Below, in pieces: positions 2,887 through 13,450 of a stretch of 13,450 nucleotides of DNA; position 1 is the first letter of the stretch; every line of letters starts with the position of its first letter. Both the position numbers and the translations under genes were made by a program. Source of the DNA: Desulfobacterales bacterium (lineage in GTDB: Bacteria > Desulfobacterota > Desulfobacteria > Desulfobacterales > Desulfobacteraceae); assembly GCA_022361135.1 (NCBI GenBank), contig JAKSBM010000325.1, positions 1-13,450 on the forward strand, read 5' to 3'. The notes beneath the pieces are model-generated. The model saw only the letters and a list, made by a program, of their open reading frames with translations. It did no database searches and had not been told where the DNA came from.

Positions 2887-2915
2887 TTGACACCCGGGGC
2901 TCAAAGCAGTAAAGT
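2887..2915 (+). promoter_or_regulatory. Promoter of the cobalamin operon (sigma-70 type)
   Basis: A perfect -35 hexamer TTGACA (2887-2892) is followed after exactly 17 bases by TAAAGT (2910-2915, 4/6 match to TATAAT). This predicts a transcript start near 2922, just five bases before the first paired stem of the B12 riboswitch. That is where the promoter of a riboswitch-controlled operon should be. It is the strongest promoter seen in the window. Confidence 0.75.
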
Positions 2916-2926
2916 TCCGTCATATT

Positions 2927-3084
2927 TCAGGTGGTGCAAGTTACGCACTGAAAAGGGAATCCCGTGGAAATCGGGAGCGGACCCGCCGCTGTAAACCGGG
3001 GATGAACACCACATATCCACCCTTGATAGGACTTGGGGAAGGAGTGGTCAGTAATTTGATCCGGAAGCCAGAAGACCTGCCTGA
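2927..3084 (+). promoter_or_regulatory. Cobalamin (B12) riboswitch aptamer
   Basis: A complete adenosylcobalamin-type aptamer. The closing stem P1 pairs TCAGG (2927-2931) with CCTGA (3080-3084). Following it are the conserved AAAGGGAAT block, the CCCG-GTGGAAAT-CGGG hairpin, GAGCGGACCCGCCGCTGTAA, and the B12 box AGCCAGAAGACCTGCC (3066-3081). A second internal helix pairs ACCAC near 3008-3012 with GTGGT near 3044-3048. The downstream genes are corrinoid import and corrin biosynthesis, exactly the expected targets. A strong intrinsic terminator at 3152-3184 makes transcriptional attenuation the likely mode: cobalamin binding should favour termination. No gene encoded on this strand starts between the aptamer and the terminator. 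Confidence 0.96.
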
Positions 3085-3151
3085 TGACTTTATCGTTTTA
3101 CTCGCGTGGAATTGAGAAGACGGTGCATTCAATGTCGGAGAAATACGGATC

Positions 3152-3184: not shown

Positions 3185-3422
3185 GGCCGACCGCCCCCAA
3201 GGGGATGCCCACCGTGGTCTGTTCCAGGCTCCAACACGGCAACGGGACATCGACCATGGCAAAGCTATATTCCATTTCCACATATTCCTTCCCCACAAGG
3301 CGGGATGGAAACTCCATAAGTTCCACGTGGAACACTCCCTGGATTTTTCACACTGCAAGCAGCCCCCCGGCGACGGAGATGTCCACCGTTTCAGCCCATG
3401 GGGTCCACAGGAGCTAAACCAT
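3185..3422. other. Unexplained 238-nt spacer between attenuator and btuC; possible minus-strand gene remnant
   Basis: Much longer than needed to lead into btuC. No plus-strand frame looks coding: the 70-codon frame 3205-3417 is rich in Ser, Thr and Pro, as antisense frames usually are. The minus strand reads better. Codons from 3413 down to about 3186 have G-rich first positions, GC-rich third positions and a balanced composition. Fragments are WTPWAETVDISVAGGLLAV, then VFHVELMEFPSRLVGKEYVE and MVDVPLPCWSLEQTTVGIPL. That frame is interrupted by TGA (3350-3348), bounded by TAG (3416-3414), and runs into the terminator. I do not recognise a family. It may be a decayed gene, a cryptic small gene starting at GTG 3335, or chance. 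The spacer also holds a parS-like site and the btuC ribosome binding site. Confidence 0.3.
3319..3334. other. parS: parS-like centromere site 1 (leader of btuC)
   Basis: AGTTCCACGTGGAACA matches the bacterial parS consensus TGTTNCACGTGNAACA at every specified position but the first. Its core GTTCCACGTGGAAC (3320-3333) is a perfect 14-bp palindrome. It lies in the non-coding spacer between attenuator and btuC, 89 bases before the btuC start. parS is bound by ParB, which loads there and slides along neighbouring DNA for chromosome segregation. The binding function is inferred from sequence only; parA and parB are not in the window. Confidence 0.65.
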
Positions 3423-4472
3423 ATGGCCAATTCATTGGGTATACCGGTTGCCATATGTCCGGGGAGGACGGGATTTCTGGTGGTCCTGTTCTCCCTGTTG
3501 CTCCTGGTTCTGATTCTAACCTCCCTTTCCATGGGCTATATTCCCCTGTCCTGGGAAGAGATGATCCGGGTGTTCCTTCCGGGGGCTGAAGAGTTGCCTT
3601 CTCCCCGCATGGAAACCCTCACCGCGGTTCTTTTCCATGTCCGCCTTCCGCGGATATTGACCTGTGCCGCCGTGGGCGGGGCCCTGGCCGTATCCGGGGT
3701 CATTTACCAGGGTATTCTCTTGAATCCCCTGGCCGATCCCTATACCCTGGGGGTATCTGCCGGCGCTGCTTTGGGAGCGGCCCTGGCCCTTCTCCTCAAC
3801 CTCGGTGCCGCCCCGGTTTCCGTACCGGCCTTTGCCTTTGCCGGAGCCTGTGCCACCCTTTTCCTGGTCATTTTTCTTTCCTGGGAGAAACAAAGCCCTT
3901 CCGGTGGATTGTCTTCCAACAACCTGATTCTCAGCGGAATCATGGTGGGGGCCATCCTCTCAGCCGGCATCAGCTTTTTAAAATTTGTGGCCAACGACCA
4001 GGTCTCGGTGATTATCTTCTGGCTCATGGGCAGTTTTGCCTCCAAAACCTGGCCCCAGTTTTTCCTGGTGGCCGGATTCCTGGTGCTGGGATTTGCCATC
4101 GCCCTCTTCCACGCCAGGGACCTGAATCTGATCTCCCTGGGTGACCGGTCGGCCCTGAGCCTGGGGGTAAACCTCAAACAAATCACCCTGGTCCTATTGA
4201 TCACCGGCTCCATGCTGGCCGCCATTTCGGTCTCCGTGTCCGGTATCATCGGTTTTGTGGGCCTTTTGGTTCCCCACATGATCCGATTCATCACCGGCCC
4301 GGACAATCGGCGTCTGTTGCCCATTTCCATGCTCTCCGGGGCAATCCTGCTCCTGGGGGCCGATACGATCACCCGGGCGGTACTCCCCCACGAAATCCCC
4401 ATCGGCGTCCTCACCGCCCTCATCGGCGGCCCGGTCTTTTGTTGGATCTTCAAGCGAAATCGATTGAAATAA
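3423..4472 (+). CDS. btuC: BtuC-like corrinoid ABC transporter permease (FecCD family)
   Basis: Inner-membrane permease that moves cobalamin or other corrinoids from the periplasm into the cell with BtuD and BtuF. It has 349 residues, near the family norm. The N-terminus has a strongly hydrophobic helix (FLVVLFSLLLLVLILTSL). Hallmarks follow: LPRIL near residue 73, YQGILLNPLADPYTLGVSAG, FWLMGSFASKTW, LSLGVNLKQ, GFVGLLVPHMIRFITGPDNR, and a final EIPIGVLTALIGGPVFCWIF. The start at 3423 has AGGAG nine bases upstream. A longer reading to 3183 would add a His-rich stretch unlike any permease. It is the first gene after the B12 riboswitch, and this identifies the substrate; FecCD proteins otherwise carry siderophores or haem. 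btuD starts two bases after its stop. Confidence 0.9.
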   Translation: MANSLGIPVAICPGRTGFLVVLFSLLLLVLILTSLSMGYIPLSWEEMIRVFLPGAEELPSPRMETLTAVLFHVRLPRILTCAAVGGALAVSGVIYQGILLNPLADPYTLGVSAGAALGAALALLLNLGAAPVSVPAFAFAGACATLFLVIFLSWEKQSPSGGLSSNNLILSGIMVGAILSAGISFLKFVANDQVSVIIFWLMGSFASKTWPQFFLVAGFLVLGFAIALFHARDLNLISLGDRSALSLGVNLKQITLVLLITGSMLAAISVSVSGIIGFVGLLVPHMIRFITGPDNRRLLPISMLSGAILLLGADTITRAVLPHEIPIGVLTALIGGPVFCWIFKRNRLK

Positions 4473-4474
4473 AC

Positions 4475-5251
4475 ATGGATATCCAGGTTCAGCATATTGA
4501 TTTTTCCCATGGAGACACGGCGGTGATTTCCCAATTGAGCTGCTGCTTTGCCCCGGGGAAATTCCACGGCATCGTGGGCCCCAATGGATCGGGAAAAACA
4601 ACCCTCATAGACCTCATCGCAGGATTTCATAAACCATCCAGCGGGCAAATCCTCCTGGGGGATCGCCCTCTACAGAGCTGGACGGCCACGGAAAGGGCCC
4701 GGCAACTCACCCGAATTTCACAGAATGAAACCATCGGCTTTCCCTTTACCGTGGAAGAAGTGGTCCTCATGGGACGCCACCCCCATATTCCCCGGTTCAC
4801 CGCCCCCTCCCACAGGGACTGGCGACGGGTGGAACAGGCCATGGAACAGGCCGGGGTCACCGAGTTCAAGCACCGGGCCATCACCGAACTTTCGGGTGGG
4901 GAACAGCAGCGCTGCCTCTTTGCCCGGGCCCTGTGCCAGGATACCCCCCTCCTACTACTGGATGAAGCCTTTTCAAACATGGATATCCACCACACCCTGG
5001 CCATGCTTTCCCAGCTTCGCAAGATGGTGGCCCACCAAGGAAAAACCATCATTGCCGTCCTCCACGACCTCAACATGGCCGCAGCCCATTGCGATGACCT
5101 TTTCTTCCTAAAAAAAGGGAAAATCCAGGCCCAGGGTCCCACCGACGTCGTATTGACAGCGGAGCAATTGGAACAGACCTTTAACATTGAAACCCAAATC
5201 CGACGGAACAGCTATGTCCAGGCCAAACAAATTGATTTCAAACCCCTGTAA
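4475..5251 (+). CDS. btuD: BtuD-like corrinoid ABC transporter ATPase
   Basis: Cytoplasmic ATPase that energises BtuC. The 258-residue protein has Walker A GPNGSGKT (residues 35-42), a Q-loop at ISQNET, signature LSGGEQQR (about 139-146), Walker B LLLLDEA (about 158-164), the D-loop SNMD and the H-loop LHDLNMAA (His197). The FSHGDTAVISQLS start and the VLMGRHPHIPRF segment are typical of Fe3+/cobalamin-type importers. The start at 4475 lies two bases after the btuC stop, implying coupled translation. An earlier in-frame ATG at 4439 would overlap btuC and is less likely. Its assignment to corrinoids rests on the riboswitch and neighbours. Confidence 0.9.
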   Translation: MDIQVQHIDFSHGDTAVISQLSCCFAPGKFHGIVGPNGSGKTTLIDLIAGFHKPSSGQILLGDRPLQSWTATERARQLTRISQNETIGFPFTVEEVVLMGRHPHIPRFTAPSHRDWRRVEQAMEQAGVTEFKHRAITELSGGEQQRCLFARALCQDTPLLLLDEAFSNMDIHHTLAMLSQLRKMVAHQGKTIIAVLHDLNMAAAHCDDLFFLKKGKIQAQGPTDVVLTAEQLEQTFNIETQIRRNSYVQAKQIDFKPL

Positions 5252-6185
5252 ACCGGCCAAGAAAGGACAGAGATGCAGCTGGATTTCCATGGCCGTGTTT
5301 CTCATCCTGACGGGCCTTTTCACTGGAGCCGCCTGGGCCGCCCCCTTCATCAAAGACCAGGGGGGACGAAGGGTCTCCGTGGCCGTCCCAAGAAGCCGGA
5401 TTATCTCCCTATACACCGCCCATACGGAAAACCTTTTTGCTTTGGGACTGAATGGGGAAGTCATCGGGATTTCTTCCAGTGATGATTATCCCCCGGAGGC
5501 CCTGTCCAAGCCCAGATATTCCCACCACGACGACCCGGAAAAGTTCCTGGCCGCTCGACCGGACCTGGTCCTGGTCCGCCCCATGATAGACCGGGGATAT
5601 CCGGATTTCATCGGCCAATTGGAACGATTCGGCATCACTGTGGTCTCCCTCCAGCCCACCCACGTAGAGGAGATGCTGGCCTATTGGAAAACCCTGGGTC
5701 GCCTCACGGGGAAGGAAAGGGCCGCCGAAGAAATGGTGACCCGATTTCAGAACCAGGTGAAGGAAATCCGATCCAAAACCCAATCCCTCACCGAAAAAAA
5801 ACAGGTCTATTTTGAAGCCATCCATGGCAGGATGAAGACCTTTTCACAGGGTGCAATGGCCCTGTTTGCCCTGGAGGCGGCCGGCGGTATTAATATTGCC
5901 CAGGATGCCAAATCCTCCAGGGGCTCCAACATTGCCAATTACGGCAAGGAACAAATCCTGGCCAAGGGCGGCCACATGGACGTCTATCTGGCCCAGCGCG
6001 GGATCATGAATCCGGTCACCCGCGCCGACATCCTCACCGAACCCGGATTCAACACCCTTAAGGCCGTGAAAAACGGCCAGGTGTATCTCATTGATGAAAC
6101 CATCGTGTCCAGACCGGTTCCCCGGCTGAGCACCGGCATATTAACCATAGGGAAGATACTCTACCCCCATTTATTTACTCCATAG
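5214..6185 (+). CDS. btuF: BtuF-like periplasmic corrinoid-binding protein
   Basis: Extracytoplasmic substrate-binding protein that would deliver corrinoids to BtuCD. A signal peptide is evident: basic PAKKGQR, then the hydrophobic core MAVFLILTGLFTGAAW and a cleavage site around AWA-APF. The mature part shows the class III binding-protein pattern: IISLYTAHTENLFALGLNGE, ARPDLVLVRP, FGITVVSLQP, and a C-terminal GFNTLKAVKNGQVYLIDE. The start is uncertain. ATG 5214 (323 residues) overlaps btuD by 38 bases. TTG 5187 is further upstream. ATG 5289 would leave a signal peptide without basic residues. The best ribosome binding site (AAAGGACAG) precedes an ATG at 5273 that is in another frame. cbiL follows after 11 bases. 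Confidence 0.85.
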   Translation: MSRPNKLISNPCKPAKKGQRCSWISMAVFLILTGLFTGAAWAAPFIKDQGGRRVSVAVPRSRIISLYTAHTENLFALGLNGEVIGISSSDDYPPEALSKPRYSHHDDPEKFLAARPDLVLVRPMIDRGYPDFIGQLERFGITVVSLQPTHVEEMLAYWKTLGRLTGKERAAEEMVTRFQNQVKEIRSKTQSLTEKKQVYFEAIHGRMKTFSQGAMALFALEAAGGINIAQDAKSSRGSNIANYGKEQILAKGGHMDVYLAQRGIMNPVTRADILTEPGFNTLKAVKNGQVYLIDETIVSRPVPRLSTGILTIGKILYPHLFTP

Positions 6186-6196
6186 AAGAGGAAGAC

Positions 6197-6904
6197 ATGA
6201 CCACCCAGAACGGAAAATTATACGGCATCGGCGTCGGGCCCGGAGATCCGGAACTCATTACCCTTAAGGCCGTACGTGCCATCCAGGAGGCCGACATTGT
6301 GTTTACGGCCGCCTCCACCAAAAACAGCTACAGCCTGGCGGTTGAAATCGCATCCCCCCATATCCCTAAAAACGCAACCATCCAGATCCTGGGCTTTCCC
6401 ATGACCAAGGATGAGGCCGTCACCGATAAAGCCTGGACCGACAATGCCCGGGAAATCGTCACCGCCCTGGAAGAGGGAAAAACCGCAGTGTTCCTTACCC
6501 TGGGCGATCCCGTCACCTACTCCACCTTTGGATATATTCTCAAAAAAATGGCCTTACTCATGCCCGGCGCGGAAATTGAAACCATTCCCGGCATCACCTC
6601 TTTCCACGCTGCATCGGCCCGCCTCAACCGCATTTTGGTTGAAGGGGAGGAATCCCTGCTCCTGACTTCCGGGGCCTTTGGCGGAAGCCAAATCCGGGAA
6701 CTCAACCAGGTGGAAAATGTTGCCATTGTTAAGGCCTATAAAAATATCCAGGACATCAACCAAGCCCTCAAGGAGACCCATCTCCATGAAAAGGGAGTTG
6801 CCGTTACCCATTGCGGACGGAAAAATGAAAGGATCTTCCAGGACCTCGATGCACTGGAATCCCGGGATCCGGATTACTGGACCTTGATTCTGGCCTCAAA
6901 ATGA
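6197..6904 (+). CDS. cbiL: Cobalt-factor II / precorrin-2 C20-methyltransferase
   Basis: SAM-dependent methyltransferase that methylates C20 of cobalt-factor II, an early step of corrin formation in the cytoplasm. The 235-residue protein has the tetrapyrrole-methylase fold. It opens with YGIGVGPGDPELITLKAVRA and continues with LTLGDPVTYSTFGYI (the GDP loop) and IPGITSFHAASARLNRILVE. The last of these distinguishes the CbiL/CobI group from the C11 and C17 enzymes. The start at 6197 has GAAGAGGAAG just upstream. Its stop TGA overlaps the next gene's ATG (ATGA). CobI is the aerobic-pathway name; cbiL is preferred because cbiG further on marks the anaerobic route. Confidence 0.92.
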   Translation: MTTQNGKLYGIGVGPGDPELITLKAVRAIQEADIVFTAASTKNSYSLAVEIASPHIPKNATIQILGFPMTKDEAVTDKAWTDNAREIVTALEEGKTAVFLTLGDPVTYSTFGYILKKMALLMPGAEIETIPGITSFHAASARLNRILVEGEESLLLTSGAFGGSQIRELNQVENVAIVKAYKNIQDINQALKETHLHEKGVAVTHCGRKNERIFQDLDALESRDPDYWTLILASK

Positions 6905-7959
6905 ACCACGGACACGGACATAGCGGCCTGCCCTGGAGGAAATTAGCCCTGGCCATGGGTGCCACCCTGGCCATGGTGGGAATCCACCATTGGGGGATCA
7001 GCCCCCTGGACCCGGGACTATTGGTTAAGAAATTGGCCTGGCCCATGGGCCGACTCATGGGGTTCATCGTTCTGGGGCTTGCTGCGGGCCAATGGCTGGA
7101 AGCCATGGGCTATACCCGTAAGTTGGCCCTTCTGGCCCGGCCCATTTTTACATTTTCCCACATGGGGGACCATTGCAGCGCCGCCTTTACCTCGGCCTTT
7201 ATCTCCGGGGCCACGGCCAATGCCATGCTCCTGGACTATTACGAGGAAGGGAAGATCACCAAGGCCCAATTGTTCATGGCCAACTACCTGAACCATTTCC
7301 CTGCATTTTTCCTCCATTTACCCACCACCATGTTCATCGTCCTGCCCCTCACCGGCAGGGCCGGAGCCCTTTACTTCATCCTGACCTTTGCCGCCACCCT
7401 TCTCCGGGTTGCCCTGGTCATGGTTGCAGGACGGCTTTTCCTGCCCCGGATTCCATTGATGAATGAATCGGGTGGAACCGATCTGAAAAAGCCCACCCCC
7501 GGCCTGGCTAAAATCAGCCAACGGATCCTGAAACGGCTACCCCGGCGCATTGCCCGGATTTTCATCTGGGTACTGCCCATATACACCCTGGTTTTTCTCA
7601 TGGGTCAAAATGGAATTTTCACCACGTTGAATCAGGCATTATCCCATTTTATGGTGGTTCAATTCATGCCCGTGGAATCTCTCTCCGTTGTTATCCTCAG
7701 CTTTGCTGCGGAATTCACCTCGGGGTTTGCGGCTGCCGGTGCCTTGATGAATGCGGGGGTCCTCACGGTGAAACAGACCGTCATCGCCCTGCTGGCCGGG
7801 AACATCCTGGCCTTTCCAATCCGGGCCATTCGTCACCAACTCCCCCGGTACATGGGGATATTCTCCCCCAAACTTGGCCTTCAATTGCTGCTCTCGGGAC
7901 AATGCTTCCGGGTGGCCAGCCTGATTTTCATTGGTTTGATTTATTATTGGACGGCATAG
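6901..7959 (+). CDS. Nucleoside-recognition (Gate) domain membrane protein, candidate cobalt or precursor transporter
   Basis: Polytopic inner-membrane protein of 352 residues. It resembles the nucleoside-recognition/Gate-domain family (SpmA, SpmB and nucleoside-transporter gates), which has no single known function. Visible features are a His-rich N-terminus (MNHGHGHSG), then hydrophobic helices at about residues 13-31 and 49-67. FSHMGDHCSAAFTSAFISGATANAML follows in two overlapping blocks (FSHMGDHCSAAF, SAFISGATANAML). After that come NYLNHFPAFFLHLPTTMF, a basic cytoplasmic loop (KRLPRRIARI) and a second Gate-like half with FAAEFTSGFAAAGALMNAGV. The gene overlaps the cbiL stop by four bases and is followed by cbiET after one base, so it is embedded in the B12 operon. 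His and Cys residues near predicted membrane edges fit metal handling, but transport of cobalt is only an inference from context. Confidence 0.78.
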   Translation: MNHGHGHSGLPWRKLALAMGATLAMVGIHHWGISPLDPGLLVKKLAWPMGRLMGFIVLGLAAGQWLEAMGYTRKLALLARPIFTFSHMGDHCSAAFTSAFISGATANAMLLDYYEEGKITKAQLFMANYLNHFPAFFLHLPTTMFIVLPLTGRAGALYFILTFAATLLRVALVMVAGRLFLPRIPLMNESGGTDLKKPTPGLAKISQRILKRLPRRIARIFIWVLPIYTLVFLMGQNGIFTTLNQALSHFMVVQFMPVESLSVVILSFAAEFTSGFAAAGALMNAGVLTVKQTVIALLAGNILAFPIRAIRHQLPRYMGIFSPKLGLQLLLSGQCFRVASLIFIGLIYYWTA

Positions 7960-7960
7960 A

Positions 7961-9190
7961 ATGAACCCAATCCACATCATCGGCATGGGCATGGGAATGA
8001 AGGACCTCACCCCGGAACATCACCGATACATTGACCAGGCAAATGTTTTGGTGGGTGGCCAACGCCATCTGGACCAATTTCCCGACTTCCATGGCACCAC
8101 CCGGGCCATCCGGGGACCTCTGCCCCGGCTGATGGATGAAATGGCAGAATTGGCCCCCACCCACCGCATTGTTGTGCTGGCTTCGGGGGATCCCCTCTTC
8201 CATGGCATTGGCTCCACGCTGTTATCCTATTTTTCACGGGATCAATTGGTGTTCCACCCCAATATCAACACCGTGGCAGCTGCATTTTCCGCCATAAAAG
8301 AGCCCTGGCAGGATGCCCGCCTGGTGGACCTACACAAGGGGACCGAACCGGAGGGCGGGTTCCAGGCCCTTTCCAGCTGGCATAAATTCATCTGCCTCAC
8401 CGGGCCTGAAACCGGGCCCGATTACATTGCCGGGAAACTATTGGAACACCAACTCACCCAATTCACCTGCTGGACCCTGGAAGCATTGGGTCACCCCACC
8501 CGGGAACGGATTCAACGCTTTTCCCACCCCAGCCAATTGGTGGATGAAAAGTTCCGCCACCCCAATGCCATGGTACTCATCGGTGAACCTAGGGACATTG
8601 TTCCACATGGAACACATTTGGGAATGGCCGATCACCGGTTTTCCCATCCCAATGGTTTAATAACCAAATCCGAAGTACGGGCGGTTACCCTGGCCAAACT
8701 TCGCCTGGATTCCGGCGTACATACCATCTGGGACATTGGGGCCGGTTCCGGCTCCGTATCCATTGAAATGGCGCTGGTTTGCCCCCAGGCCCATATCCAT
8801 GCCGTGGAAAAAAATCCAGACCGTGGAAGCCACATTACAACCAATAAAGAGAGGTTCCACTGTGGGAATCTCACCTGGGTCCAGGGAGACGCCCTGGAAC
8901 AGATGACTGCCCTCCCCGCTCCCGATCGTATTTTCATAGGCGGGGGCGGGGGCGATTTACCCAAAATCATAAACCATTGCTGTGGACGGCTGAATCCAGG
9001 GGGACAATTGGTCATAAACACCGTGGTGCTCCAAAATATGCAGGCAGCCCAGGAAGCCCTCCAAGCCAATGGATTCGAAATTGAAACCACCCTATTACAG
9101 ATTTCACGTAGCCATCCAATCCCCGGCGGAGACCGAATGGTTCCGCTGAACCCGGTGTGGATTATTTCTGCTTTACGAAAGGATCATTGA
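7961..9190 (+). CDS. cbiET: CbiE-CbiT fusion: cobalt-precorrin-7 C5-methyltransferase / C15-methyltransferase (decarboxylating)
   Basis: Two-domain enzyme of 409 residues. The N-terminal half (about 1-200) is a tetrapyrrole methylase of the CbiE type: IHIIGMGMGMKDLTPEH, VLVGGQRHL, and VVLASGDPLFHGIGSTLL. The C-terminal half (about 215-409) is a CbiT-type Rossmann methyltransferase with the SAM loop WDIGAGSGSVSIEMA (from residue 257) and FIGGGGGDLPKII. Together they methylate C5 and C15 and decarboxylate the C12 acetate side chain, as the fused CobL does in aerobic bacteria. The start is one base after the preceding stop, and cbiF begins directly after its own stop. A parS-like site (8599-8614) lies in the stretch joining the two domains, where codon choice shifts toward A/T endings. 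Confidence 0.92.
   Translation: MNPIHIIGMGMGMKDLTPEHHRYIDQANVLVGGQRHLDQFPDFHGTTRAIRGPLPRLMDEMAELAPTHRIVVLASGDPLFHGIGSTLLSYFSRDQLVFHPNINTVAAAFSAIKEPWQDARLVDLHKGTEPEGGFQALSSWHKFICLTGPETGPDYIAGKLLEHQLTQFTCWTLEALGHPTRERIQRFSHPSQLVDEKFRHPNAMVLIGEPRDIVPHGTHLGMADHRFSHPNGLITKSEVRAVTLAKLRLDSGVHTIWDIGAGSGSVSIEMALVCPQAHIHAVEKNPDRGSHITTNKERFHCGNLTWVQGDALEQMTALPAPDRIFIGGGGGDLPKIINHCCGRLNPGGQLVINTVVLQNMQAAQEALQANGFEIETTLLQISRSHPIPGGDRMVPLNPVWIISALRKDH
8599..8614. other. parS: parS-like centromere site 2 (inside cbiET)
   Basis: TGTTCCACATGGAACA differs from the consensus TGTTNCACGTGNAACA only at the central G (here A), leaving perfect 7-bp inverted arms. It is read in cbiET as GTT CCA CAT GGA ACA. All five codons end in A or T, although cbiET overwhelmingly prefers C or G at third positions. 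This suggests selection on the DNA itself. Binding is not shown. The central change may weaken it. Confidence 0.5.
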
Positions 9191-9979
9191 ATGAATACAC
9201 CTGCAAATCCAATTATTTTTGCCGGAGCCGGCCCCGGCGATCCAGAGTTGATGACCATCAAAGCCATGAAAGCCCTTGAAAGTGCCGACTTAATTATCTA
9301 CGCCGGGTCATTGGTTCCCGAAGCCGTTCTGATTTGGAAGGGAGATAAGACCCAAACCCTATCCTCGGCGGGAATGACCCTGGAAGATATGGTGGACACC
9401 ATGGCCAATGCCCAATCCAAGGGCCAGAAGGTGGTTCGCTTACACACGGGAGACCCGTCCTTATACGGCGCCATTTTTGAACAAATCCGGGAACTCCAGA
9501 AAAAGGAAATTCCCTACCATGTCATTCCAGGGGTCACCGCAGCCTTTGGGGCGGCTGCCCGCATGGGCATGGAATACACCCTCCCCGAGGTCACCCAGAC
9601 CCTGATTCTCACCCGGGTCTCCGGGCGCACACCAGTGCCCGAGGCCGAAGATCTGGACAAATTGGCCGCCCACCAAAGTTCCATGGCCATCTATCTTTCC
9701 GTGGGCATGGCCGGCAAGGTCCAAGAAACCCTGTCCAAACATTACGGCCCCAAATCCCTGTGTGCCGTTGCCTATAAAGTGGGCCACCCCGAAGAAAAAA
9801 TCCTTTTCACACCCTTGAAGGAACTCGATGTGTGTTGCGAAACCCACGACATCCATCGCCACGCCCTCATCATCGTTGGCAAGGCCGTTGAAGCCAGCCA
9901 GGGTCGCCATGAATTGATCAAATCCAAGCTCTATGCCGCCGACTTTACCCATGGATATCGAGATGGCCGCCCCGCATAA
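9191..9979 (+). CDS. cbiF: Cobalt-precorrin-4 C11-methyltransferase
   Basis: SAM-dependent methyltransferase acting on C11 of cobalt-precorrin-4, 262 residues, the usual size. Markers of the CbiF/CobM group are IIFAGAGPGDPELMTIKAMK, LIIYAGSLVPEAVL, VRLHTGDPSLYGAIFEQI, VIPGVTAAFGAAARMGMEYT and LPEVTQTLILTRVSGRTPVP. The start ATG directly follows the cbiET stop with no spacing, and the 3' end overlaps cbiG. No anomalies were seen. The short extra tail (KLYAADFTHGYRDGRPA) is probably there because cbiG's start is embedded in it. Confidence 0.94.
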   Translation: MNTPANPIIFAGAGPGDPELMTIKAMKALESADLIIYAGSLVPEAVLIWKGDKTQTLSSAGMTLEDMVDTMANAQSKGQKVVRLHTGDPSLYGAIFEQIRELQKKEIPYHVIPGVTAAFGAAARMGMEYTLPEVTQTLILTRVSGRTPVPEAEDLDKLAAHQSSMAIYLSVGMAGKVQETLSKHYGPKSLCAVAYKVGHPEEKILFTPLKELDVCCETHDIHRHALIIVGKAVEASQGRHELIKSKLYAADFTHGYRDGRPA

Positions 9980-11090
9980 CCCCAATAAAGGGGAACTGGC
10001 CATCTGGGCCCTGACCCCCGGCGGTGGGAAGTTGAGCCGGCGCCTGTCGGCCATCCGACCCGGAGCCCGTATTTTTCTGGGCCGGAATTGTGGAAATCCC
10101 GGAAGGGGATTTCCCAAGGCCCAGGTCCGATCAATGGATCGGCTTGGCCCTACACTGGCCCGGGAATTTCACAATTTCCAGGCCCATGTGTTCATCTTCT
10201 CCACGGGCATTGCCCTAAGGGTTTTGGCTCCCCTCATTGAAACCAAGGAAAAGGACCCGGCCGTGGTCCTCATGGATGAACGGGGAGAAAATATCATCTC
10301 CCTGCTTTCGGGACACATTGGCGGTGCCAATGCCCTGACCCTGGAACTGGCAAGGGCACTGGATGCCCATCCCGTCATTACCACGGCAACCGATGTCAAT
10401 GGAATCCAAAGCGTTGACCATGTGGCCACGGTCCTTGACATGGCCATTGAAAACATTGACGCCATCAAAGGGGTGAACATGGCCACCCTCAAGGGTGAAA
10501 GAATCCAAATTAAGGATCCGGCCGGATTGTTGGCGCCCCATCTGGAAATTCCATCCCTGGAAGTCCTGGGTCCCGACGATCCCTTTTCACCCGATCCCCG
10601 GATCCCTAAGATCCATTGCCACTGGGAAACCCAAGCTGTTCCACGTGAAACCCTGTTGGTCAGACCCCGGTGCCTTTACGTGGGCATGGGATGCAATCGC
10701 AACACCCCCGGGGCCGACCTGGAAGCCTTCTTCGGGAGCACATTGAAAAAATTCAACCTCAGTCCCCTGGCTGTGGCGGCCTTGGCCACCACCCAGGTCA
10801 AGGCAGACGAACCCGGGCTTCTGGCCCTGGGCCAAAAGTTGGGCCTGCCCATCCGATTCTACGACAAGGCAGCACTGAATTCCGTAACCCAAATTCAAAA
10901 TCCATCCAAAATGGTGGAAAAACATTTAGGAGTAAAAAGCGTATGCGAAGCAGCATCCATACTGGCATCGAAACAGGGGCAGCTGATTCTGCCCAAACAG
11001 AAAAATCCGGACATCACCCTGGCCGTCTCTTTGTCATCGGCACCGGACCGGGCAACGCAGCCCACATGTCCGGACGGGCCCGCCAGCTGA
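9951..11090 (+). CDS. cbiG: Cobalt-precorrin-5A hydrolase (CbiG)
   Basis: Opens the delta-lactone of cobalt-precorrin-5A and releases the two-carbon fragment, the ring-contraction step that marks the oxygen-independent route. It has about 379 residues. The N-terminal part has LAIWALTPGGGKLSRRL, and the central CbiG domain has IALRVLAPLI, VVLMDERGENIISLLSGHIG and ANALTLELARAL. The C-terminal domain has LYVGMGCNRNTPGADLEAFF, ADEPGLLALGQKLGLPIRFY and GVKSVCEAASILASKQGQLI. Starts at 9933, 9951 and 9963 are all possible and all overlap cbiF; none has a strong ribosome binding site. Its last 148 bases overlap cbiH in another frame, an unusually long overlap. A parS-like site (10637-10652) lies between the central and C-terminal domains. 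Confidence 0.9.
   Translation: MDIEMAAPHNPNKGELAIWALTPGGGKLSRRLSAIRPGARIFLGRNCGNPGRGFPKAQVRSMDRLGPTLAREFHNFQAHVFIFSTGIALRVLAPLIETKEKDPAVVLMDERGENIISLLSGHIGGANALTLELARALDAHPVITTATDVNGIQSVDHVATVLDMAIENIDAIKGVNMATLKGERIQIKDPAGLLAPHLEIPSLEVLGPDDPFSPDPRIPKIHCHWETQAVPRETLLVRPRCLYVGMGCNRNTPGADLEAFFGSTLKKFNLSPLAVAALATTQVKADEPGLLALGQKLGLPIRFYDKAALNSVTQIQNPSKMVEKHLGVKSVCEAASILASKQGQLILPKQKNPDITLAVSLSSAPDRATQPTCPDGPAS
10637..10652. other. parS: parS-like centromere site 3 (inside cbiG)
   Basis: TGTTCCACGTGAAACC matches the consensus TGTTNCACGTGNAACA except for the last base, and is 15 of 16 identical to the well-known Bacillus site TGTTCCACGTGAAACA. In cbiG it is read as GTT CCA CGT GAA ACC in the linker before the C-terminal domain. 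CCA and CGT are unusual choices here, where CCC and CGG dominate. It is the best match of the three. Confidence 0.65.
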
Positions 11091-11797
11091 TTCAAGAGGC
11101 CGACTGTGTTGCCGGCTACACCACCTACCTGGACCTTATCCAGGAGCTGATCCAGGATAAACCCCTGATCAACACCGGAATGATGAAGGAAGTGGACCGG
11201 GTGGAACAAGCCATTGAAGAAGCCCTGGCCGGAAAAAAATGTGCCCTGGTTTCCGGGGGGGATCCGGGAATTTACGCCATGGCAGGTCTGGTTTTTGAAC
11301 TCTGCAAGGAACGCAATATTCCCATTCACAGAACCGAAGACCAGGCAGAGGCCGGAAGCATTATCCTGGAAGTGGTTCCAGGCATTCCTGCCCTGGCCGC
11401 AGGAGCGGCCCTGGCCGGTGCCCCCCTTACCCATGACTTTGCTGCCATCTCCCTTTCGGACCTGCTCACCCCCTGGGAAAAAATTGAAAAGCGTCTTTCC
11501 GCATCTGCCATGGCAGATTTTGTCATTGTGCTGTATAACCCTAAGAGCAAAAAACGGGACTGGCAGCTGAAACGGGCCCAGGAATTAATTCTGGAACACC
11601 GGGACGGAGCCGTTCCCGTGGGCATCATCACCGGCGCCATGCGGGAAAACCAGGAAATCTGTTTCACCCGACTGGACCAATTGCACACCGCAGAGGTGGG
11701 CATGCAGACCATTGTTTTCATCGGCTCCAGTGAATCGGCCCGATATATGGATTACCTCTTTACCCCCAGGGGATATACCCGAAAATATACGGTATAA
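10943..11797 (+). CDS. cbiH: Cobalt-factor III / precorrin-3B C17-methyltransferase
   Basis: SAM-dependent C17-methyltransferase catalysing the ring-contracting methylation that forms cobalt-precorrin-4. It has 284 residues. The methylase core begins at LFVIGTGPGNAAHMSGRARQ (residue 27) and has CVAGYTTYLDLI, ALVSGGDPGIYAMAGLV, VVPGIPALAAGAALAGAPLT, HDFAAISLSDLLTPWEKIE, VLYNPKSKKRDWQL and GIITGAMRENQEI, all typical of CbiH/CobJ. ATG 10943 is chosen because AGGAG (10928-10932) sits ten bases upstream and no other usable start lies before the core. This puts the first 148 bases inside cbiG. The first 26 residues look like a linker dictated by that overlap. The frame is open further upstream to 10670, so a fused CbiG-CbiH made by a -1 shift is conceivable. 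Confidence 0.91.
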   Translation: MRSSIHTGIETGAADSAQTEKSGHHPGRLFVIGTGPGNAAHMSGRARQLIQEADCVAGYTTYLDLIQELIQDKPLINTGMMKEVDRVEQAIEEALAGKKCALVSGGDPGIYAMAGLVFELCKERNIPIHRTEDQAEAGSIILEVVPGIPALAAGAALAGAPLTHDFAAISLSDLLTPWEKIEKRLSASAMADFVIVLYNPKSKKRDWQLKRAQELILEHRDGAVPVGIITGAMRENQEICFTRLDQLHTAEVGMQTIVFIGSSESARYMDYLFTPRGYTRKYTV

Positions 11798-11821: not shown

Positions 11822-12334
11822 ATGAAAGGTTATGTTCAGGTTTACACGGGAAATGGAAAAGGAAAGACCACGGCCAGTCTGGGCCTGGCCATCCGGGCGG
11901 CCGGCGCCGGTCTCCGGGTCTTCATTGTCCAATTCATGAAGCAGGGAAATTATTCGGAAATCAAGGCCCTGTCGGCCTTCGATAATATCCAGGTGGAACA
12001 ATACGGGGCGGGCAAATTTGTAAAGGGCAAACCCTCGGAGGAGGAAATCGCTTCCTGCCGCAAGGGATACCAACGCCTCGTCAACCTGATCCAGGCCAAT
12101 GAACATGACCTCATCATTGCCGAAGAATCCAATGTGGCGGTGATGTGCGGCTTGATCAGCGAAGCCGAACAATTGGAATTGGCCGAGATGAAGCCGGACA
12201 ACATGGAATTGGTCTTCACCGGCCGTGGAGCCACCGAGGCATTGAAGGCCCGGGCCGATCTGGTCACGGAAATGAAGGAAATCAAACATTATTACAAACA
12301 GGGCGTTTCCGCCCGGGTCGGCATTGAAAAATGA
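11822..12334 (+). CDS. cobO: Cob(I)yrinic acid a,c-diamide adenosyltransferase
   Basis: Transfers the 5'-deoxyadenosyl group of ATP to cobalt(I) of corrinoids, making the coenzyme form. The CobO/CobA/BtuR family fold is seen in 170 residues: VQVYTGNGKGKTTASLGLAI with the P-loop GNGKGKTT (residues 10-17), VFIVQFMKQGNYSEI, and VFTGRGATEALKARADLVTE. The C-terminal MKEIKHYYKQGVSARVGIEK matches the family ending. The start at 11822 has AGGAG eight bases upstream, and 24 bases separate it from cbiH. One oddity: the acidic motif after the central strand, usually like LDEIN, reads IIAEESNVAV (residues 98-107), with Asp replaced by Glu. Its stop overlaps the cbiP start (ATGA). It serves both de novo synthesis and salvage of imported corrinoids. 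Confidence 0.92.
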   Translation: MKGYVQVYTGNGKGKTTASLGLAIRAAGAGLRVFIVQFMKQGNYSEIKALSAFDNIQVEQYGAGKFVKGKPSEEEIASCRKGYQRLVNLIQANEHDLIIAEESNVAVMCGLISEAEQLELAEMKPDNMELVFTGRGATEALKARADLVTEMKEIKHYYKQGVSARVGIEK

Positions 12335-13450
12335 AAAATAAGCACATTGCCGTATTGGGCACGGGATCGGATGTGGGCAAAAGCATTGTGGCCGCGGGAA
12401 TCTGCCGCTGCCTGGTGGACCGGGGTTACACCACCGCCCCCTTCAAGGCCCAAAACATGTCCAATAATTCCGGCATCACCCCCGAAGGGTTGGAAATGGG
12501 CCGTGCCCAGATTGTACAGGCCGAAGCCGCCCGTATTCCACCCCATGTGGACATGAATCCCATCCTCCTCAAACCCACCGGGGATAAACAATCCCAGGTG
12601 GTGGTCAATGGTCGGGTCCACTCCAACCAATCGGCCATGGATTACCACACCCGGAAGGATTATTTCCAAAGGGAAGTCCATGGCGCCTTTGATCGTTTGG
12701 CCGACCGCTACGACCGCATTGTTCTGGAGGGGGCCGGCTCCTGTGCCGAAGTCAATCTCATGCCCAATGACCTGGTCAACTTCAGCATGGCCGAATATGC
12801 CGACGCACGGGTGATTCTGACGGCGGATATCCACCGGGGCGGAGTCTTTGCCCAATTGGTGGGCACCCTGGACTGCATCCCCCAAAAGTACCGGGATCGG
12901 GTGGACGGATTCATCATCAACCGATTCCGGGGGGATATCAACCTCTTTACGGAGGGGAGCAAGTGGATCGAGGAAAAAACCGGAAAACCTGTGTTGGGGG
13001 TCCTGCCCTGGTACACCCATTTCCGCATCGATGCCGAAGACTCCGTGGAACTGGAACAGCCCACCCCCCAAGACATGGACGATGAACGACCGGCTATTGC
13101 TGTGATCCGCCTTCCCCGAATCGCCAATTTCACCGACTTTCACGCCTTGACCAAAATCCCCGGGCTCCAGACCATTTTCATTGATTCCCCCAGGGATCTC
13201 CATCGATTTAAGGCCGTGATCCTGCCGGGCTCCAAAAACACCCGCCAGGATCTGGAATGGCTGAAAAATGAATTTGGCCAAGCCCTGGACCAATACCATT
13301 GCCAGGGGGGTCACCTTCTGGGGATCTGCGGCGGTTACCAGATGCTGGGACAAAAGGTTGCCGACCCCCACGGACTGGAAGGGCAACCCGGGGACACCAC
13401 CGGCCTGGGCCTCCTCCCCGTGGAAACCATCCTCAAGGCACCAAAAACCA
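12331..13450 (+). CDS. cbiP: Adenosylcobyric acid synthase, glutamine-hydrolysing (3' end outside window)
   Basis: Amidates side chains b, d, e and g of adenosylcobyrinic acid a,c-diamide using glutamine and ATP, giving adenosylcobyric acid. The frame is open from 12331 to the window edge (373 codons of about 480-510 normally). The N-terminal synthetase domain shows the modified P-loop GTGSDVGKS (residues 10-18), FKAQNMSNNS, the RAQIVQAEAARIPPHVDMNP block, LKPTGDKQSQVVV, LEGAGSCAEVNL and TADIHRGGVFAQLVGTL. The amidotransferase domain starts with VILPGSKNT and includes the nucleophile in GICGGYQMLG (Cys333). The start overlaps the cobO stop by four bases. CobQ is the aerobic-pathway name. Further corrin genes may lie downstream. 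Confidence 0.95.
   Translation, partial: MKNKHIAVLGTGSDVGKSIVAAGICRCLVDRGYTTAPFKAQNMSNNSGITPEGLEMGRAQIVQAEAARIPPHVDMNPILLKPTGDKQSQVVVNGRVHSNQSAMDYHTRKDYFQREVHGAFDRLADRYDRIVLEGAGSCAEVNLMPNDLVNFSMAEYADARVILTADIHRGGVFAQLVGTLDCIPQKYRDRVDGFIINRFRGDINLFTEGSKWIEEKTGKPVLGVLPWYTHFRIDAEDSVELEQPTPQDMDDERPAIAVIRLPRIANFTDFHALTKIPGLQTIFIDSPRDLHRFKAVILPGSKNTRQDLEWLKNEFGQALDQYHCQGGHLLGICGGYQMLGQKVADPHGLEGQPGDTTGLGLLPVETILKAPKT

Follow-up and report, generated by a model that had tools for sequence, protein, structure and literature searches.

Introduction

Why should an operon for the uptake and synthesis of cobalamin (vitamin B12) carry three copies of a sequence that resembles a bacterial centromere? The question is raised by a contig of a Desulfobacterales bacterium (GenBank assembly GCA_022361135.1, contig JAKSBM010000325.1), which was analysed over its whole length of 13,450 bases and is referred to here as the window. 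Its B12 operon contains three close matches to TGTTNCACGTGNAACA, the palindrome known as parS in chromosomal ParABS systems, in which ParB loads at parS, slides and engages ParA and SMC. We consider it likely, with a probability of roughly 85%, that these three sequences serve as parS on the chromosome and that the operon hosts the origin-domain centromere, i.e., a zone in which ParB is loaded. ParB very probably docks at the palindromes, and the B12 genes would be the host of the centromere, not its purpose.

Three Palindromes in One Operon

A pattern scan of the window finds exactly three matches to TGTTNCACGTGNAACA at up to three mismatches, each with a single mismatch, and thereby reproduces the three sites listed in a preliminary description of this DNA that was made from its letters. 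Site 1 (AGTTCCACGTGGAACA; 3319–3334, with no strand assigned to it or to the other two) lies in the leader between a cobalamin riboswitch and a btuC-like gene and begins 221 bp downstream of the riboswitch. Site 2 (TGTTCCACATGGAACA; 8599–8614) lies inside cbiET, where it is read as the codons GTT CCA CAT GGA AC (V-P-H-G-T) and has CACATG at its centre; site 3 (TGTTCCACGTGAAACC; 10637–10652) lies inside cbiG and is read as GTT CCA CGT GAA AC (V-P-R-E-T). Two of the three mismatches fall on an outer base, and sites 1 and 3 keep a perfect 14-bp core, GTTNCACGTGNAAC.

Under Markov models of order 1–4, the expected number of matches at no more than one mismatch in the window is 0.001–0.003, which agrees with the earlier estimate of about 0.002, and three are observed. 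In 200 shuffles of the window, the mean was 0.33 matches at up to three mismatches, and three matches were reached once. Two hallmarks of chromosomal parS are therefore seen in the window, namely a 16-bp palindrome within one or two mismatches of TGTTNCACGTGNAACA and clustering above chance, the latter also in relatives. A megablast search of 72,556 plasmid records with the window as query returned no match, although this is a weak test for distant plasmids.

The Sites in Related Genomes

Related B12 loci were obtained by scanning genome contigs with a 16-row CbiET alignment and retaining 80 loci, among which L001–L027 and L039 were treated as Desulfobacterota. When orthologous operons are compared, as the preliminary description had suggested, the palindrome recurs at the window's positions (btuC leader, cbiET and cbiG) in many relatives from the Desulfospira family, with parallel sites, for example, at 3983, 9292 and 11311 in L007 and at 5297, 10642 and 12721 in L027. 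The counterpart of site 1 precedes the btuC match by 63–256 bp in L002, L004, L007, L027, L183, L306, L308, L310, L315 and L316, and by about 600 bp in L009, L307, L309 and L323. No site at up to two mismatches was found in L005, L010, L012, L015–L018, L020, L022–L025 and L039. In each of seven relatives scanned for it, a cobalamin riboswitch precedes btuC, and in five of these the leader site lies downstream of the riboswitch (L007, L027, L183, L306 and, with CATATG, L180); in the other two, G048 and G070, the leader site is absent. G094 has a CACGTG-form site inside cbiET at an offset identical to that of the site in G070.

The genome-wide scan proposed in the same description, run in the relatives, finds the motif concentrated at the B12 locus and not evenly scattered. 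In a first set of 28 genomes, the core pattern GTTYCAYRTGRAAC was matched in 27, and the reversed pattern, used as a control, in one (G004). In a second set of 58 genomes, from the family of Desulfospira joergensenii (G002), the pattern GTTYCACRTGRAAC was matched in 53 and its reversed control in five; among the 20 family genomes with matches listed in full, 18 carry a match. A tally was then made of the 56 genomes, in a family of 86, that have both a placed cbiET and a fully listed pattern result. It leaves out G006 and G044 (cbiET, no site) and genomes without a placed cbiET, and one CATATG match of G004 falls outside its pattern. At least one site lies within 10 kb of cbiET in 44 of the 56 tallied genomes, every site does so in 34, and 99 of all 143 sites fall within this distance.

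The neighbourhoods of the remaining 12 were read except in G055. In nine of the 12 (G051, G052, G054, G059, G062, G065, G068, G069 and G073), a site lies within 1.3 kb of cobO, and in a seven-genome sub-group (G052, G054, G059, G062, G065, G068 and G073) two sites flank the stretch from cobO to a gene that we take to be thpR, a label given without a family search, with cbiET at a distant position. The presence of the sites thus does not require a cbiET nearby. Outside the tally, where the reading of neighbourhoods left out genomes such as G031, G033, G042, G058, G064 and G066, the genomes G010, G046, G057 and G063 carry sites that lie within B12 genes or next to cobO. The family's sites are usually inside or beside B12 genes and shape the encoded proteins.

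In the outgroups, the palindrome has another address. Five outgroup genomes (G001, G012, G017, G019 and G023) carry a perfect copy within about 60 bp of an mnmE match, in the company of genes that we take to be yidC, jag and rnpA. Outgroup sites in the 28-genome scan are of the CACGTG form, except for one in G026 and a CATATG match in G001. In G001, the sampled guanine–cytosine (GC) skew is negative before about 4.1 Mb and positive from about 4.35 Mb on, so that it changes sign around the parS at 4.229 Mb, and the B12 operon is 1.04 Mb from parS. Among the matches listed for 15 family genomes with a placed mnmE, none adjoins that gene. We infer that the mnmE-adjacent state of the outgroups is the older one.

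Selection on the Site DNA

Codon use was compared in 28 sequences, the window included, which were picked by the analyst mostly from relatives already known to carry sites; the measure was the mean identity of codons encoding the same residue, taken in blocks of five codons. The cbiET site codons, GTT YCA CAT GRA AC, are intact in 15 of the 28, have one codon changed in five and two or more changed in eight, and of the 27 aligned cbiG sequences, again with the window counted, 25 have the site codons GTT YCA CGT GRA AC unchanged. Synonymous identity averages 0.45 over cbiET and 0.47 over cbiG and rises to 0.92 and 0.98 at the respective site regions, such that the blocks overlapping the sites are the top three of 369 in cbiET and the top two of 288 in cbiG. 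These ranks shift with block placement: with the valine as its first codon, a block is placed 3 of 369 in cbiET and 7 of 288 in cbiG, since its threonine codon ends on a base outside the palindrome core. Site-bearing relatives share 36–49% protein identity with the window, and relatives without sites mostly have unrelated residues where the site-encoded peptide would be. The constraint on the site codons of cbiET and cbiG is, as far as codon comparison can tell, a constraint at the DNA level, and the peptides V-[SP]-[HR]-[EG]-T appear to be held by selection on DNA.

ParB of the Relatives

If the sites are parS, the family's ParB should be able to read them. All 32 genomes of one ParB scan encode a ParB that exceeds the family cut-off. 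Residues were numbered by motif spacing against PMC7383237, according to which R173 and G201 are the parS-type residues and Q162, S172 and R204 are among the contacts common to ParB and Noc. Q162, R173, G201 and R204 are found in all 39 family ParBs; none of the 39 has lysine at 179, and one has lysine at 184. Residue 172 is asparagine in 38 of the 39, and in the outgroup set (n = 10) it is serine in eight and aspartate in two. The parS-specific residues are accordingly kept in the relatives, and S172N departs at one contact residue.

Around this parS-contacting position the clade has its own GKNRS motif, as opposed to GKSRS or GKDRS in outgroups (e.g., L146:1396–2268). Family sites often have CACATG, in the same clade as the N172 form of ParB, and as a lead only, N172 may relax the requirement at the centre of the palindrome. 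G057 has an S172 ParB together with a CACATG site.

Position Relative to the Origin

Chromosomal distances were taken in the ten single-contig relatives (G070, G048, G053, G039, G073, G065, G054, G059, G068 and G052). In all ten, mnmE is 5.1–11.3% of the chromosome from the sites, parB 17.1–48.4% and dnaA 13.7–49.0%. GC skew was sampled in four of these genomes, and in three of them the sites are 0.1–3.3% of the chromosome from the skew turn. In G070, the coarse turn falls at 3.0–3.3 Mb and the dense cumulative minimum near 3.17 Mb, with sites at 2.969–2.978 Mb; in G048, the coarse turn falls at 0.5–0.75 Mb and the dense minimum near 0.55 Mb, with sites at 0.612–0.614 Mb; in G039, the turn lies between 0.01 and 0.56 Mb, with sites at 0.271–0.279 Mb. 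In these three genomes, parB is 25–38% of the chromosome from the turn. A parA-like gene, recognized by eye, directly precedes parB in G070, the one genome read. In G070, G048, G039 and G053, dnaA is far from the skew turn and therefore seems not to mark the origin. For the window itself, the distance to the origin is extrapolated from these relatives. The earlier suggestion that the B12 operon is origin-proximal or serves as a ParB loading zone is thus supported in relatives by the concentration of sites, the conservation of their DNA, the nearness of mnmE and the skew of three of the four genomes, with G053 as a contrary case.

Several observations weigh against an origin-domain centromere at the B12 locus. 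In G053, whose sites are in the B12 operon at 5.144 Mb, the skew turns positive at 4.3–4.6 Mb, which is 12–16% of the chromosome away from the sites and only 1–5% from parB (4.256 Mb); this lack of support for origin proximity slightly lowers our confidence. The dense skew profile of G048 is noisy, and the skew of G073 lacks a clear minimum. A scan for DnaA-box clusters around the sites gave none, either in stretches of G048 and G070 or in the 12 loci scanned, so that oriC was not located. In all ten single-contig relatives, parB is far from the sites; a par operon in the ori domain is a usual, not an essential, feature, and ParABS systems seldom have parAB so remote from the origin. In the earlier 28-genome set, ParB exceeded the cut-off in 24 genomes and did not do so in G001, G007, G018 and G024. 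As to the sites themselves, 44 of the 143 are outside the cbiET neighbourhood, no B12 gene is near the single site of G056 or near the one of the three G038 sites that was read, and G003 has two of its three sites 55 kb from cbiET.

Two of these cases merit a description of their own. The skew turn of G053 (C1:4.25–4.6 Mb), unlike those of G070, G048 and G039, may reflect a rearrangement or a different origin position. In G003 (Desulfocicer vacuolatum), C34:66651–66692 (L178) holds a perfect parS and a one-mismatch copy whose starts are 26 bp apart; the pair lies about 55 kb from cbiET, beside genes that look GntR-like by eye, and hints at a further move.

Taken as parS, the sites would work as follows, in a scheme that follows established ParABS biology (see also PMC7022226 and PMC7053999). 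ParB, whose gene lies far off together with parA, would nucleate at the three predicted parS sites and load as a cytidine triphosphate (CTP)-dependent sliding clamp that covers the B12 operon, which would become the centromere on which ParA and SMC act in the origin domain. The family would have this centromere in or beside its B12 locus, as opposed to beside mnmE in outgroup Desulfobacterota. Binding, loading, the role in segregation and the direction of the move are all deduced from sequence comparison.

Alternative Explanations

The alternative that survives best adds to the parS reading and does not exclude it: the sites would be true parS, and the ParB complex would also modulate transcription of the B12 operon. 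Because the leader site stands between the riboswitch and the first gene, ParB occupancy and riboswitch-gated transcription could interfere, and the same order in five of the seven scanned relatives is in its favour. There is also a precedent, in that a mutated pneumococcal parS raised the expression of comCDE 5 kb away, as told in PMC7022226, where it is likewise told that loss of Spo0J in Bacillus subtilis left genes beside parS unaffected. G048 and G070 lack the leader site, and sites persist where cbiET is elsewhere, and we regard such modulation as improbable. A role of the sites in B12 control, at which the preliminary description had hinted, is unsupported because the sub-group described above keeps its sites at cobO although its cbiET is elsewhere.

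A more elaborate scenario is somewhat more doubtful again. The family would have moved its centromere from mnmE into coding DNA of the B12 locus while parAB and dnaA drifted to remote regions of the chromosome, S172N would have loosened the need for a central CG so that in-frame codons can serve as parS, and riboswitch-gated transcription would couple corrinoid status to ParB loading and segregation.

Still less likely, and in our opinion very unlikely, is that a B12- or metal-responsive transcription factor uses the palindromes as its operators and shares the parS sequence by coincidence. It is true that all three sites are in one B12 operon and that site 1 occupies a leader downstream of a riboswitch. 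However, two of the sites lie deep inside reading frames, the family ParBs keep the parS-type residues, and in 34 of the 56 tallied genomes there is no site for ParB outside the cbiET neighbourhood. A B12 operator is also disfavoured by the seven genomes with sites flanking cobO to thpR and a remote cbiET, and by the five outgroups with the palindrome beside mnmE.

Chance, or enzymes that need V-[SP]-[HR]-[EG]-T and spell parS by accident, is scarcely credible: sites 2 and 3 do share reading phase, but site 1 in the leader encodes nothing, synonymous codons are held more rigidly at the sites than elsewhere in the gene and site-free enzymes mostly carry unrelated residues there, which rules out a protein-driven coincidence, while the match counts, the Markov expectation and the synonymous constraint rule out chance.

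Noc and its NBS sites in nucleoid occlusion involve a related protein family and a similar site size. Unlike that system, the family's sites match parS, and a Noc binding site is ruled out by the R173 and G201 of all 39 ParBs, which are not the Noc-type Q173 and R201 (residue roles according to PMC7383237).

The Host Operon and Its Neighbours

The operon runs, all on the forward strand, from the riboswitch (2912–3098; RF00174, 101.4 bits) through a BtuC/FecCD permease (3423–4472, with the start assumed at 3423; PF01032, the best models being BtuC and under their cut-offs), a BtuD-like ABC ATPase (4475–5251; PF00005, finer models under cut-offs) and a BtuF-like periplasmic binding protein (5187–6185; PF01497) to cbiL, for precorrin-2 C20-methyltransferase (6197–6904; TIGR01467 over cut-off). 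There follow a gene for a 352-aa protein, cbiET, the host of site 2 (7961–9190; TIGR02467 and TIGR02469 over cut-off), cbiF (9191–9979; TIGR01465 over cut-off) and cbiG, the host of site 3 (9933–11090; PF01890 and PF11760). The series ends with cbiH/cobJ (10943–11797; TIGR01466 over cut-off), the corrinoid adenosyltransferase gene cobO (11822–12334; PF02572), which is the landmark of the parS locus in the sub-group whose cbiET lies elsewhere, and cobQ, for cobyric acid synthase (12331–13450; NF001989 and TIGR00313 over cut-off), which runs off the contig.

Three further features were noted in passing. The 352-aa protein (6901–7956) has no Pfam or NCBIfam match and has counterparts in the B12 operons of many relatives. 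An ABC ATPase and a UPF0014/FetB-like permease (1390–2860) form a pair directly upstream of the riboswitch, and a similar pair is seen by eye in L180. In G070, two cobalamin riboswitches stand back to back on opposite strands (L182:1523–1983).

Comparison with Known Systems and Implications

The arrangement resembles a chromosomal ParABS centromere in having a 16-bp TGTTNCACGTGNAACA-type palindrome in several copies within a few kb, located near mnmE (10 of 10 relatives) and near the skew minimum (three of four), with parS-type residues in ParB and a parA-like gene directly before parB (G070). It differs in its B12 operon host, in its many CACATG sites, in S172N and in the distance of parB from parS (17–48% in the relatives, a separation from the origin that by skew holds in G070, G048 and G039 and not in G053). 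In Pseudomonas aeruginosa, parS is not known to be hosted by B12 genes, and parAB is near oriC. According to work on that species (PMC4368675), nine of the ten sites parS1–10 most probably lie within coding sequences, and ParB still binds sites with one mismatch, so intragenic parS and one-mismatch parS, both likenesses to the present sites, are already known; par operons are located in the ori domain according to the review PMC7022226. What is new here is the family-wide B12 address of the proposed centromere, the remote parAB and the clade-specific S172N of ParB beside CACATG sites.

Among the best matches of the literature searches, including those on in-gene, degenerate and deltaproteobacterial parS, nothing was met on a link between parS and B12, on parS in the Desulfospira family, on the B12 address, on the mnmE contrast or on a remote parAB; the searches did not cover Livny et al. 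2007, reportedly the main parS survey, where a prior mention is possible.

If the sites are indeed parS, the family would offer a centromere relocation with both states preserved in living relatives, and an apparent break of the usual rule that parAB adjoins the origin. Selection for a DNA site would have been so strong that it fixed a peptide in two metabolic enzymes. The sites also predict where ParB would bind in sulfate reducers in which dnaA is apparently no guide to the origin.

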